Part shown: positions 1,989 to 31,520 of the stretch, one piece after another
Numbering within the stretch: the stretch's first letter is position 1
Layout: each line of letters opens with the position of its first letter
Assembly (NCBI GenBank): GCA_025935675.1
Contig: JAICUU010000007.1
Location: 1 to 37,918, forward strand
Direction: 5' to 3'
Length of the DNA stretch: 37,918 bases
Source: Burkholderiales bacterium
GTDB lineage: Bacteria; Pseudomonadota; Gammaproteobacteria; Burkholderiales; Casimicrobiaceae
Made by a program: the position numbers and the translations under genes
The notes under the pieces: generated by a model
What the model was told of the DNA's origin: nothing
What the model saw: only the letters and a program-made list of their open reading frames with translations
Databases searched by the model: none

Positions 1989-3049
1989 CGCGCCCCCGCC
2001 GCAAGGCAGGCCTCGGCGATGCGCACGGCGGCGTCGTGGCGGCCGACGGCGCGCGCCGCGACGGCCAGCGCGAGCGCGCGCTCGCGCGTCAGGCCGGCGA
2101 CGAGGTCGGCGAGCGTTGCCGCGTCGAGCCGGTCCTGCCTGATGCAGGTCGCGCCGCCCGCGTCGACGAGATAGCGCGCGTTCGCCGTCTGCTCGTCGGC
2201 GATCGCGCCGGGCAGCGGCACGATCAGCGCGCCGAGACCCACCGCGGCGAGCTCGGCCACCGTCAACGCACCGCCGCGGCAGACGACGAAGTCGGCCCAT
2301 GCGTAGCGCGCCGCCATGTCGTCGATGAACGCCACGCACTCCGCCTCGACGCCGTAGTGCGCATAGCGTTCGGCAAGCACCGCCTGGTGGCGCGCGCCGG
2401 CCTGGTGGACGACGCGCGGCCGACGCTCGACCGGAAGGCGCGCGAGCGCGGCAGGGACGCATTCGTTGAGCGCCTGCGCGCCGAGGCTGCCGCCGACGAC
2501 CAGGAGGCGCAGCGGGCCTTCGCGGCCGGCGAAGCGCTCGCCCGGCGGCGGCAGCGACACCATCTCGTCGCGCAGCGGGTTGCCGGTGAACTCGACGATA
2601 CGCCGGTGGCGGCCGCGGAACGCGTCGGGAAACCCCACCAGCAGCCGGTCGGCGCCGTATGCGAGGATGCGGTTGGCGAGACCCGCGATCGCGTTGGCCT
2701 CGTGCAGCAGCAGCGGCACGCGAGTCGCCGCGGTCATCAGCGCGCCGGGAAACGACGCGAAGCCGCCGAAGCCGATGACGACGTCCGGCTTGCGGCGCTT
2801 CAGCACGCGCGCGCTGGCGATGCACGCGGCGGCGAGCGCGAACGGCCCGAGCAGCAGCGTGCGCAAGCCCTTGCCGCGCACGCCGCGGAAGTCGAGGCCC
2901 TCGAAGTCGACGCCATGCTGCGGCACGAGCCGCGATTCCATCCCGCCGTGCGTGCCGAGCCAGAACACGCGCGCGCCGCGCGCCACCAGCTTGTGCGCGA
3001 CCGCGAGCCCCGGGAACACGTGGCCGCCGGTGCCGCCGGTGGTGATCAT
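1985..3049 (-). CDS. murG: UDP-N-acetylglucosamine--N-acetylmuramyl-(pentapeptide) pyrophosphoryl-undecaprenol GlcNAc transferase (MurG)
   Basis: [33 protein letters not shown]...[13 protein letters not shown]...[26 protein letters not shown]; 4-nt overlap with murC. Confidence 0.95.
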
Positions 3050-3059
3050 CACCGTCGCC

Positions 3060-3173
3060 GGCCCTGCGGCGCTCAGGCAGTAATCCCCCGCAGCGCGCTG
3101 CGCGCGCCTCCCCCGAAGGGGGCGAGCGCCTTGGGACGGCCCTGCGGCGCTCATACGGTAAACCCCCGCAGCA
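3060..3173. repeat. Imperfect direct repeat (two 36-nt copies, 78-nt period) across the ftsW 3' end and the ftsW-murG spacer
   Basis: Minus strand: gctgcgggggtttaccgtatgagcgccgcagggccg (3138-3173) versus gctgcgggggattactgcctgagcgccgcagggccg (3060-3095); 32/36 identical. The interior contains the palindromic run cctcccccgaagggggcg. Confidence 0.8.
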
Positions 3174-16075: not shown

Positions 16076-19000
16076 GCGACTCGTCCGCGACGCCGAAGCG
16101 CACGTGGCGCCGCCGCACGGCCCGCGCCGCGGCCTGGACGCTCGCGGCGCTGTTCGCGCTCGTCGTCGCGCTCGTCGCGCTCGTCGCGTTCGTCGGCGGC
16201 ACGCAGTCGGGCCTGCCCTACGCGATCGCGCAGCTCGAGCGGCTCTCGGGCGGGCGTCTTACCATCGAAGGCGCAACGGGGGCGCTCCTGTCGACCCTCA
16301 ACGTAGGGACGCTGCGCTGGAAGGGCGACACCACCACACTCGTCGCGCACGACGTCATCGTCGACTGGGATCCCGCCGCGCTCGCGCGCCGCGAGCTGCA
16401 TGTGCGGAGCGCCGGCGCCAGGACGATCGACATCGCCGTCGCGCCGTCGTCGGGCGGGCCTTCGTCGCTGCCGTCGTCGCTCGGCCTGCCGCTCACCGTC
16501 GTCGTCGACCATGCGAGCGTGACGACGTTCGACTATGCGCTCGGCGAGCGCAAGGGCCGCGCCACCGGCATCGCCTTCGCGTACCGCGGAGACGCGCGCG
16601 GCCACAGGCTCGACGAGGTGACGCTCGCGTTCGACCGCGCGCGCATCACGGGGCGCGCGACGCTTGATGCCGCGTCGCCATTCGCGCTCGCCGGCGCGAT
16701 CGGCGTCGAAGGCAGCGACGCCTTCGCGGGCTACGGCGCGAACGCGACGCTCGGCGGCACGCTGTCGCGCATCCTCGTCGCTGCGAACGGCCGCGCGCGC
16801 GACGCGCGCTTCGACGCCCGCGCCGCGCTGACGCCGTTCGCCACGGCGCCGATCGACACGCTCGACGTCGACGCCACCGGCGTCGATCCCGCCGCGTTCG
16901 GTGCGGCGCTGCCGCACGCGACGCTCGCGCTCGCCGTGCACGCACGACCGGCGCGCGACGGCTTCACCGGCACGCTTACGCTCGCCAACACCGCGCCGGG
17001 CACCCTCGATGCCGATCGAATGCCGGTGACGACGCTGTCGGCGACGTTCGCGCAGCGTGGCCAGGTGGTGTCGCTCGGCGGCATCGATGCGCGCGCCGGC
17101 GACGGCAACGTGCGCGGCGACGCGTCGTTCGACGTCGAGCACGGCACGACGAGCGCCACGCTCGCGCTCGCCGGCGTCGACCTGCGCGCGCTGCACAGCG
17201 CGCTGGCGGCGTCGCGCGTCAGCGGCACGCTGCGCGCGCGCGTCGACGCCGACGCGCAGGCGTATGAGGGCGACCTCGCCGACCGCGCGCGCGGCCTCGC
17301 GCTCGACTTCGCCGCGCGCGTCGCCGATCGGCGCGTCGCGCTGTCGCGCGCGCGCCTCACCGCCGCCGCCGGCACGCTGCAGGGCCGCGGCGAGTTGGCG
17401 CTCGACGGCGCGCGCGCGTTCACCTTCCGCGGCACGGCGACGCGCTTCGATCCGTCGCGCCTCGGCCGATTTCCGGCCGCCTCGCTCGAAGGCACGCTCG
17501 CGCTCGACGGGCACCTCGAGCCGGCGTGGTCGGTGAGTGCCGAGGCGAAGCTCGGTGCGGGCGCGACAATCGGCGCGAAGCCGGCGTCGGGTCACGCCAA
17601 GGCGAGCCTCGCCGCCGGGCGAGCGCGCGGCGTCGACGTCGACCTTCGCGTCGGCGACGCGCACGCGACGGCGCACGGAGACGCGGGCGCGAGCGGCGAC
17701 GCGCTCGCGTTCACGCTCGACGCGCCGCACCTCGCCGCGCTGGTGCCGCTCGTGCCCGGCGCGGCGTCGGCGCTGCGCGACGGCGCCGTCGCAGCGCATG
17801 GCACGCTGGCGATCGCGCCATCCGGCATCGGCGGCAGCGTGACCGCCGACGCAAGCCAGCTCGCGCTCGCCGACGGCACGCGCATCGCGTCGCTCGCGCT
17901 CGATGCCGACGTGGGCATGCCGGCACATCCGTCATTCCCGCGGAAGCGGGAATCCAGTCGTGACGTTGCGCGGGATGCGCGCGCCAGCCCCCCCGGGACG
18001 TCAAGGCTGGATCCCCGCATTCGCGGGGATGACGACCAGTCGTCGACGCACCCCGCGTCCGCGCTCGCCGATCGCGTCGTCGCGATCGACGTGCGCGCCA
18101 CCGGCATCGCGACCGAGGCGCACGCGATCGAGCGCGCGCACGTGACGGTAAAGGGCACGCTGGCGGCGCACGCGCTCGCGCTCGACGTCGCCAACGCCGC
18201 CGATCACGCCACGCTCGCCGCGCATGGCGCGCTGACCCTCGGCCCGGCGGCGAAGCGCGCGTGGCGCGGCACGATCGACGCCGCGGAGCTCGCCGGCACG
18301 CTGCCGGTCAAGCTCGTCGCGCCCGCCGCGCTCGAATGGACGCCTGCGCGCACCCACCTCGGCGTCGCGCGAATCGCCGTCGCCGATGGCGACGTCGCGC
18401 TCGACGATCTCGTCGTCGAGGACGCACGCGTCACTACACGTGGAAGCTTCACGCACGTGCCGCTCGGCACCGTGGCGACGCTCGCCGGCCAGCCGCTGCC
18501 CATCGCCTCGACGCTGACGCTCGACGGGCACTGGAACCTCACCGCATCGCCGCGCCTCGACGGCACGCTCGCGATCACGCGCCATGACGGCGATCTCTTC
18601 GCGGCCGGCGACACGCTCGCCAACTTCGCCGATTACCCGATCGGCGTCGACACGCTTGCGCTCGATGGCCGCGTGCGCGGCGACGCGTGGACGCTCGACG
18701 CGCGCTTCGCGTCGCTGCGCGCCGGGACCGCCACGTTGCACGCGACGCTGGCGCCGGGCCCCACGGCCGGCGTGCCTTCGCTCGACGCGGCGCTCGAGGC
18801 GAAGCTCGACGCGACGCTCGCGTCGCTCGCGCCGCTGCAGCCCTGGCTCGGCACGTCGGCAGTCGTCGACGGCCGCGCCGAGCTTCATTTCGCCGCCGCG
18901 GGAACGCTGCGCGCGCCGTCGATCACCGGCACGCTCGACGGCTCGGGCCTGCATGTCGACATGCCGCAGTACGGCATCGCGCTCGCCGACGGCCGCGTGC

Positions 19001-29385: not shown

Positions 29386-30321
29386 TCACCAGAGGGTTCC
29401 GGCGAAGCTTTGATTGTATAACGCGTCGATCCGTTCCCGGTTGACCACGTGGTTCTGCGCGCCGCGCGAGCCGATCTTGAGCGCGCCGAGCGTCGCGGCG
29501 AGCTGGCCGCTGCGCTGCCAGTCCCATCCGCTTGCCATCCCGTACAAGAGACCGGCGCGGTACGCGTCGCCGCAGCCGGTCGGATCGACCACCGCCGCCG
29601 CGCGCGCGACACCGATGCGCAGCACCTGGCCGTCGGCGTGAATCTCGGAGCCCTCGCCGCCGCGCGTGACGACCATCGCGTCGACGCACCGCGCCAGCGC
29701 GTCGATCGTAAGCCCGGTGCGCTCGGTGAGAAGCCGCGCCTCGTAGTCGTTGACGGTGAGGACGCTCGCGGCGTCGACCATCGACACGAGCTCGTCGCCG
29801 TCGAAAAGCGTCATCGCCTGGCCCGGGTCGAAGATGAACGGGATGCGCGCGGCGTGAAACTCGGCGGCGTGCTGCAGCATGCCCTCGCGGCCGTCCGGCG
29901 CGACGATGCCGATGCCGATGCCGGCGACGTCGCCGACATGGTTGTCGTGCGAGCGTCCCATCGCGCCCGGATGGAACGCGGTGATCTGGTTGTCGTCGAG
30001 GTCGGTGATGATGAAGGCCTGCGCGGTGAACTGGTCCGGCACGTCGCGCACGCCGTCGCAGCCGATGCGCAGCGACGCGAGCCGGTCGCGGTAGCCCGCG
30101 CCGTCCTTGCCGAGCGTCGCCATCGCGACCGGCTCGCCGCCGATCGCCGCGAGGTTGTAGGCGATGTTGCCGGCGCAGCCGCCCCACTCGCGGCGCATGT
30201 CGCTCACGGTGAACGCCACCGACAGCACGTGCGCCTGGTCGGGCAGGATGTGCCGCGCGAAGCGGTCGGGGAACACCATGATGGTGTCGAAGGCGAGCGA
30301 GCCGCAGATGAGCGTGCGCAT
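29386..30321 (-). CDS. PfkB-family carbohydrate/adenosine kinase
   Basis: MRTLICGSLAFDTIMVFPDRF...GGCAGNIAYNLAAIGGEPVAMATLGKDG...VTRGGEGSEI...VDPTGCGDAYRAGLLYG (PfkB signature DPTGCGDA). Confidence 0.93.
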   Translation of the reverse strand: MRTLICGSLAFDTIMVFPDRFARHILPDQAHVLSVAFTVSDMRREWGGCAGNIAYNLAAIGGEPVAMATLGKDGAGYRDRLASLRIGCDGVRDVPDQFTAQAFIITDLDDNQITAFHPGAMGRSHDNHVGDVAGIGIGIVAPDGREGMLQHAAEFHAARIPFIFDPGQAMTLFDGDELVSMVDAASVLTVNDYEARLLTERTGLTIDALARCVDAMVVTRGGEGSEIHADGQVLRIGVARAAAVVDPTGCGDAYRAGLLYGMASGWDWQRSGQLAATLGALKIGSRGAQNHVVNRERIDALYNQSFAGTLW

Positions 30322-30450
30322 GCGAGAAATCCGCGCGCGCCGGCGGCGCCGCGGGAAAGGTTGCAAAGGGGGCGAAGTGTAGCGCGACGCGCCATTGCCT
30401 CGTGCCCGGTCGCGGTCATGAGGCGCATGCGAATGTGGTCGCCATGCGAA

Positions 30451-30530
30451 GGCCGGGCTGCGGGGATATCGCCAGTCGCTCAAACACGCTTCGCGAACTC
30501 GCTTGGTGGCGATATCCCCGCATCCCGGCC
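30451..30530. repeat. Hairpin element copy A (24-bp stem, 32-nt loop)
   Basis: ggccgggctgcggggatatcgcca-[gtcgctcaaacacgcttcgcgaactcgcttgg]-tggcgatatccccgcatcccggcc; 23/24 stem pairs. Confidence 0.95.
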
Positions 30531-30617
30531 ACCGATCGCCCTGCGGTCGTCACGAACTCCGGATGTCGGCGCTCTCATGCGCGGTGTCGTTGCCTTGCGG
30601 CCCGCACGACTGTCCGT

Positions 30618-30697
30618 CGTCGGGATGGCGGGGCATTGCCACCAAGCGAGTTCGCGAAGCGTGTTTGAGCGACTGGCAATGCCCCGCCAGCCCGACG
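30618..30697. repeat. Hairpin element copy B, inverted relative to copy A
   Basis: cgtcgggatggcggggcattgcca-[ccaagcgagttcgcgaagcgtgtttgagcgac]-tggcaatgccccgccagcccgacg; 23/24 stem pairs; loop is the exact reverse complement of the copy A loop. Confidence 0.95.
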
Positions 30698-30746
30698 CCG
30701 CGCAAGAAGGCCGATGCGCAACCGTCGCTTCGACCGTCGAGACGCC

Positions 30747-31520
30747 TCAGTCGATGACGACCTCGCGGCCGATCTCGCGCACCACCGATTGCTGGCGCCG
30801 GGACACCGGCAGCGATTCGTCGATGCCGTCGAGGATCACTTCCCAGTGCGCGTCGCCGTCGTTGTTGAGGCGCCGCTCGAAGCCGCGGATCGCCTCGCGC
30901 GCGACGAGGCAGTTGCGATGCACGCGCACGAAGCGCGCGCCGAATTCGTTCTCGAGCTTGGTCAGCGATTCCTCGAGCAGGTATTCGCGATCAGGCGTGC
31001 GGATCGTGATGTACTTGAGCTCGGCCTTGAGGTAGACGACCTCCTCGATCGGCACCAGCACGACGCGCGAGCGCTCGGTGACCGACAGGAAGCGCCGCGC
31101 GTTCGACGGCAGCTGCGCGAGGCGCTCGCCGTTGAGCGGCTTCAGCTTCGGCACCTTCTGCAGCGCCGCGAGCAGCCGCTGCACGCGCACCGGCTTGACG
31201 AGGTAGTCGACCGCGTGCACGTCGAACGCCTGCAGCGCGTGCTCGTGGAATGCCGTCGAGAAGATCACCACCGGCGGATGCGCGAGCTTGAGGAGATGCC
31301 GCGCGAGCTCGAGCCCGTCCATGTCCGGCATGTGGATGTCGGTGAGCACGAGGTCGGCCGGCGCCGAGGCGAGGAGGTCGAGCGCCTCGCGGCCCTGCGT
31401 CGCCTCGCCGACGACCACCAGCGGCAATTGCACGGCGCAGTCGTCGAGCAGCTCGCGCAGCCGTCTTCGCGCAGGCGTCTCGTCGTCGACGATGAGGATG
31501 CGTAGCGGCGTCTCGTTCAT
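30747..31520 (-). CDS. algR: LytTR-family response regulator (AlgR-like)
   Basis: [25 protein letters not shown]...VLTDIHMPDMDGLEL...VDYLVKPVRVQRLLAAL...LytTR domain FLSVTERSRVVLVPIEEVVYLKAELKYITIRTPDREYLLEESLTKLE...FVRVHRNCLV. Confidence 0.9.
   Translation of the reverse strand: MNETPLRILIVDDETPARRRLRELLDDCAVQLPLVVVGEATQGREALDLLASAPADLVLTDIHMPDMDGLELARHLLKLAHPPVVIFSTAFHEHALQAFDVHAVDYLVKPVRVQRLLAALQKVPKLKPLNGERLAQLPSNARRFLSVTERSRVVLVPIEEVVYLKAELKYITIRTPDREYLLEESLTKLENEFGARFVRVHRNCLVAREAIRGFERRLNNDGDAHWEVILDGIDESLPVSRRQQSVVREIGREVVID

Follow-up and report, generated by a model that had tools for sequence, protein, structure and literature searches.

Inverted pairs of long hairpins with identical loops in a Burkholderiales genome: a possible product of replication template switching

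Selection on an RNA or DNA fold is usually proved by covariation, and the question raised by the algR-pfkB locus described here is whether covariation retains that meaning when it is seen between two neighbouring, inverted hairpins. The locus lies in a window, i.e. the whole stretch of DNA analysed, of 37,918 nucleotides from a Burkholderiales bacterium of the family Casimicrobiaceae.

Anatomy of the hairpin pair

The two hairpins, A (30451-30530) and B (30618-30697, inverted relative to A), are located in a non-coding interval of 425 bp (30322-30746) between two genes that are both encoded on the minus strand:

29386..30321, minus strand: PfkB-family carbohydrate kinase gene, the downstream neighbour (Pfam PF00294; synteny in congeners)
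30451..30474, plus strand: 5' stem arm of hairpin A, 24 nt
30475..30506, plus strand: 32-nt loop of hairpin A; loop B has the same sequence on the opposite strand
30507..30530, plus strand: 3' stem arm of hairpin A
30531..30617, no strand: spacer between the hairpins, 87 nt
30618..30641, minus strand: stem arm of hairpin B adjoining the A side
30642..30673, minus strand: 32-nt loop of hairpin B, the reverse complement of loop A on the plus strand
30674..30697, minus strand: outer stem arm of hairpin B
30747..31520, minus strand: AlgR-like LytTR response regulator gene, the upstream neighbour (Pfam PF00072 and PF04397; start codon taken from the sequence)

Both hairpins consist of a stem of 24 positions and a loop of 32 nt. 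The loops are identical at 32/32 positions, and as the copies are inverted, they are exact reverse complements of each other when read along one strand; the loop and the innermost 4 bp of the stem make up an identical core of 40 nt. The stems differ at seven positions (1, 3, 11, 12, 16, 17 and 20), each change being compensated in the opposite arm (7/7), while a C-T mismatch at stem position 8 is common to A and B. Coordinates, stem and loop lengths, inversion, loop identity, compensated positions and the mismatch had all been given in the initial annotation of this DNA and were reproduced, and its view that the pair is more than a plain duplication was borne out. Some of the seven stem differences may be mirrored indels, in which case fewer than seven events would be needed; a candidate is CTG-CGGGG in A versus CTGGCGGGG in B, with a compensating gap near positions 17-20. 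The ends of the spacer show weak inverted similarity, and homology may extend slightly past the hairpins.

A and B are the top two long hairpins within the window, with folding z-scores of -7.2 to -8.5 relative to dinucleotide shuffles. The predicted RNA energy of the H1:H2 duplex is -148.7 kcal/mol versus -108.3 kcal/mol for the two local hairpins, and the lowest-energy RNA fold of the whole 247 nt is a single long imperfect hairpin.

Copies in the genome and in related genomes

The genome from which the window was drawn comprises 3.68 Mb in 410 contigs and is ~96% complete. The initial annotation had proposed a blastn search for the core and a covariance model. Within this genome, blastn and a covariance model built from A and B returned A and B and no third hairpin copy, and DNA and covariance-model searches of 21 congeners, 64 genomes of the family and 399 of the order returned no homologue. 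Likewise, no exact 20-24-mer match turned up in genome or viral contigs; a 20-mer taken from the loop, for instance, occurs neither in the contigs of genomes from ~85,000 species nor in those of viruses. Blastn against plasmids and phages gave no match to the hairpins. All matches in Rfam 15 fall far below the gathering scores, in agreement with the initial annotation, which had not recognised the family. The sub-threshold Rfam matches, most of them with miRNA families of eukaryotes, were set aside as generic to long hairpins, and the weak search matches that were inspected (RTX-type repeats in G001, and the loci L004 and L008) look like chance. A search for plasmids carrying AlgR relatives yielded no useful control set.

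The synteny of algR and pfkB is retained in congeners, where the interval has a median length of ~110 bp (31-379 bp, 20 loci) versus 425 bp here, and none of the congeners examined has a hairpin pair in this interval. Since the congeners are distant (PfkB identity of at most ~73%), this absence says little about the age of the pair. No target duplication is visible by eye around the pair, and the congeners are too diverged to reveal an exact empty site.

Because A and B are the only two copies in the genome, they do not belong to a dispersed family of the REP, BIME or MITE type. The pair resembles a REPIN, REP doublet or BIME in having two inverted palindromic units, an intergenic position and compensatory changes (PMC3116915), but differs in its copy number of two, in loops of 15-52 nt when the two further loci described below are included, in the lack of a core sequence common to these loci and in that no RAYT was found. 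The search for the RAYT (Y1) transposase, which had also been proposed, gave no PF01797 match in the genome, of which the missing 4% leaves a small doubt, whereas control genomes were positive. A MITE is similar in size (~250 bp) and has terminal inverted repeats, but the present pair occupies a single locus, has no family and shows no target duplication by eye. The suggestion that the pair is a mobile hairpin or a REPIN/BIME mobilised in trans is thus disfavoured by the presence of only two copies in the genome, none having been found elsewhere, and by the failure to find a Y1 transposase.

Ordinary REPINs of another sequence are frequent in the same genome. They consist of inverted pairs of CGTCATYCCCGCG..GCGGGRATCCAG repeats of ~100 bp, although no RAYT was found, and tandem arrays of REP-containing units also occur. 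A different palindrome family, around GGGTCAGACCC / GGGTCAGGTC, is present in congeners and related loci; at L030 it forms a hairpin immediately beyond pfkB, with a loop of 34 nt. The positions are:

Ordinary REPINs: window 17930-18034; L108 12721-12824; L096 2609-2756; L059 9045-9154; also L069, L072, L085 and L119
Tandem arrays of REP-containing units: L119 2855-3175 and L161 1120-1289
GGGTCAGACCC / GGGTCAGGTC palindromes: L018 3221-3257; L027 3292-3342; L030 2450-2537; L184 1585-1641 and 7117-7153

Two further loci with the same layout

A sequence-independent scan for hairpin pairs in which the loops match and both hairpins fall within 400 bp was run on 1.19 Mb of the genome, about a third of it (contigs picked by number and truncated at 20 kb where long). 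It identified three inverted pairs, namely the algR-pfkB pair and two others:

L042 (contig C1): hairpins 2858-2928 and 3033-3103, inverted, loop 15/15 identical; in the intergene of divergent metZ-like and radical-SAM genes
L145 (contig C103): hairpins 1677-1776 and 1841-1952, inverted, loop 52/52 identical; between the co-directional genes pilQ (secretin) and aroK (shikimate kinase)

The direct pairs in the scan were only tandem copies of REP-type and similar repeats. In an independent list of local inverted repeats, the same three loci take the top ranks (arms, 64-80 nt; gaps, 93-106 nt), while the next entries score at most 30 and are mostly ordinary REPINs. By architecture, the pairs form a class, of which the scanned third or so of the genome contains at least three loci, with total sizes of 247, 246 and 276 bp. 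Long hairpins outside REPs occur in this genome mainly as pairs. Twenty surrogates of this 1.19 Mb, generated with a first-order Markov model, contained no hairpin pair with matching loops, and none was found in 1.31 Mb of sequence surrounding pfkB in related Betaproteobacteria; the contrast of three pairs in 1.19 Mb with zero in 1.31 Mb supports a special status of the lineage only modestly. Searched across 22 genomes of the genus, the L042 and L145 elements each find just their own two hairpins, and sequence shared among the three loci does not exceed that of shuffles.

Extra repeats accompany both further loci. The pilQ-aroK interval (L145 1580-2037) contains a partial direct copy of the arm and the loop start at a spacing of 84 nt, a sign of local rearrangement, and two more diverged direct repeats; at L042, an extra partial arm copy (CTCACCCGACGAC) lies past the second hairpin at 3127-3139, near the radical-SAM start.

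In all three pairs, the loop and the inner 3-6 bp of the stem are 100% identical (cores of 40, ~21 and 64 nt), whereas the stem outside the core differs between the copies and similarity is gradually lost in the flanks. Pooled over the algR-pfkB pair and L042, the loops show 0/47 differences versus 13/52 changed stem positions (Fisher p ~1e-4). Stem changes are compensated in 7/7 cases at the algR-pfkB pair and in 3/6 at L042, where three are uncompensated, and at L145 a 2-nt length difference occurs in both arms, i.e. as a mirrored indel. Each pair also has a mismatch shared by both copies, C-T at the algR-pfkB pair and at L042 and a similar pyrimidine one at L145. As the loops are wholly different between loci, no common sequence-specific binder explains their retention, and the idea of the loop as a conserved family motif had to be given up. 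What the sequences retain is the match between the two members of each pair, which points to either loop-loop pairing or copying of one loop into the other.

Loop-loop pairing would correspond to a selected cis-acting structure that preserves self-pairing within each stem as well as complementarity of the two loops, e.g. bistable DNA (a cruciform pair) or RNA that alternates between two hairpins and the long H1:H2 duplex. The full compensation at the algR-pfkB pair, the existence of three loci that have this layout and are alike in total size, and the two alternative folds (-108 versus -149 kcal/mol), between which a switch is conceivable, are in line with such a structure. However, the gene contexts are unrelated, being co-directional at the algR-pfkB locus and L145 but divergent at L042, the congeners examined lack the pair at the syntenic site, three changes at L042 are uncompensated, and a fully paired loop-loop contact of 32 or 52 nt with both stems closed is probably sterically implausible; a selected structure is hence considered rather unlikely. 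The occurrence of the layout between divergent genes at L042 and the hairpin-free syntenic site of the congeners examined also speak against a 3'-UTR motif for the algR transcript, as had been suggested. Generalised to several loci, selection on the hairpin/duplex switch would define a new class of 'paired-hairpin' cis-elements, recognised by an architecture of self-complementary stems and mutually complementary loops, and this we regard as unlikely.

The regular dimensions could also reflect a miniature mobile element, MITE-like or REPIN-like, with hairpin arms and a sequence turnover so fast that its copies look private. Total lengths (247, 246 and 276 bp) and inter-arm gaps (93-106 nt) are alike at three intergenic loci, and the algR-pfkB interval exceeds the congener median (425 versus 110 bp), but no two loci share sequence above shuffles, each has just its own two hairpins in the genome, and neither a target duplication by eye nor a Y1 transposase was found, making mobility quite improbable. 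Alternatively, recombination between the identical inverted loops could flip the segment between them, as recombining sites remain identical, and three loci indeed have a short intergenic segment bordered by identical inverted repeats (15-52 nt), as in invertons (invertible promoters). Such a switch is very improbable, since the core length is too variable for one site-specific recombinase, no serine recombinase (PF00239) was found in the genome, the candidates being just three tyrosine recombinase genes (PF00589), and the interval lacks a promoter-like match; moreover, the arms match perfectly in the present orientation only and would pair with mismatches once flipped. Finally, palindromes are hard to assemble and the genome is a draft of 410 contigs, yet an assembly artefact is hardly credible, given that stems, flanks and spacer all show mirrored differences between the copies, that these are placed within a contig of 38 kb, and that three loci have the same layout with different sequences.

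Template switching as a possible origin

The explanation that we favour, with a probability of about one half, is that replication template switching at palindromic DNA produced the pair locally and in this lineage only, and that the pair is not a dispersed element. Template switching homogenises the arms of inverted repeats and inverts the spacer between them (PMC8604942), and it accounts for compensatory changes and loop inversions in RNA genes, including bacterial rRNA (PMC8794818). As it gives rise to mirrored changes and loop inversions without selection, covariation between two copies alone is no proof of a selected fold, and the conclusion of the initial annotation that covarying stems imply selection on the folded form does not follow (PMC8794818, PMC8604942). 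Like reported template-switch mutations at quasipalindromes, the present loci combine mirrored stem changes and an inverted loop with a locus-private occurrence and no dispersed copies (PMC8604942, PMC8794818, PMC7202029); unlike those, they involve two neighbouring hairpins and retain a mismatch in both copies, and the copied loops are 15-52 nt long instead of a few nt.

Extending the published mechanism to two neighbouring, similar hairpins, we infer three steps and their order from what is directly seen, which comprises the layout and its recurrence at two unrelated loci, the changes mirrored between arms, the identity of the cores and the absence of further copies. In the first step, a hairpin-forming sequence would be duplicated locally and inverted, e.g. 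by folding back of the nascent strand. The stems would then diverge, with one arm of each hairpin repeatedly templating the other, which would generate mirrored substitutions and small indels. Later, synthesis inside one hairpin arm would jump to the similar arm of the neighbouring hairpin, copy the neighbour's loop backwards and return, so that one loop becomes the exact reverse complement of the other. The switch points would lie in the inner few bp of the stem, leaving the older mirrored differences in the outer stem. A sequence-specific function would be unnecessary, while side effects on the transcript or on DNA topology would be possible.

Several observations are consistent with template switching: the loops are private, the identical core ends within the inner stem at 3/3 loci, and extra partial arm copies are present at L042 and L145. 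The inversion of all three pairs is likewise expected, as backward copying of a strand requires it. Other observations argue against it. In particular, the mismatch that persists in both copies of each pair should have been removed by arm correction, and it lowers the claim; at L042, uncompensated changes equal the compensated ones in number. Reported loop inversions span 2-8 nt versus 15-52 nt here, single long hairpins should be commoner than pairs outside REPs, although the opposite is found, and the total sizes are rather regular. With one genome per species, no strain-level intermediate or event was seen.

Three loci with unrelated sequences combine strong two-copy covariation and a perfectly kept loop. 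This recurrence is hard to fit with a sequence-specific function and easier to reconcile with a mutational process in which arms and loops are copied. If selection is the cause, the pairs represent an unrecognised class of elements that is invisible to sequence searches. If template switching is true, they provide a natural bacterial test case with loops much longer than in the cited reports, and call for caution when structured RNAs are called from paralogous hairpins.
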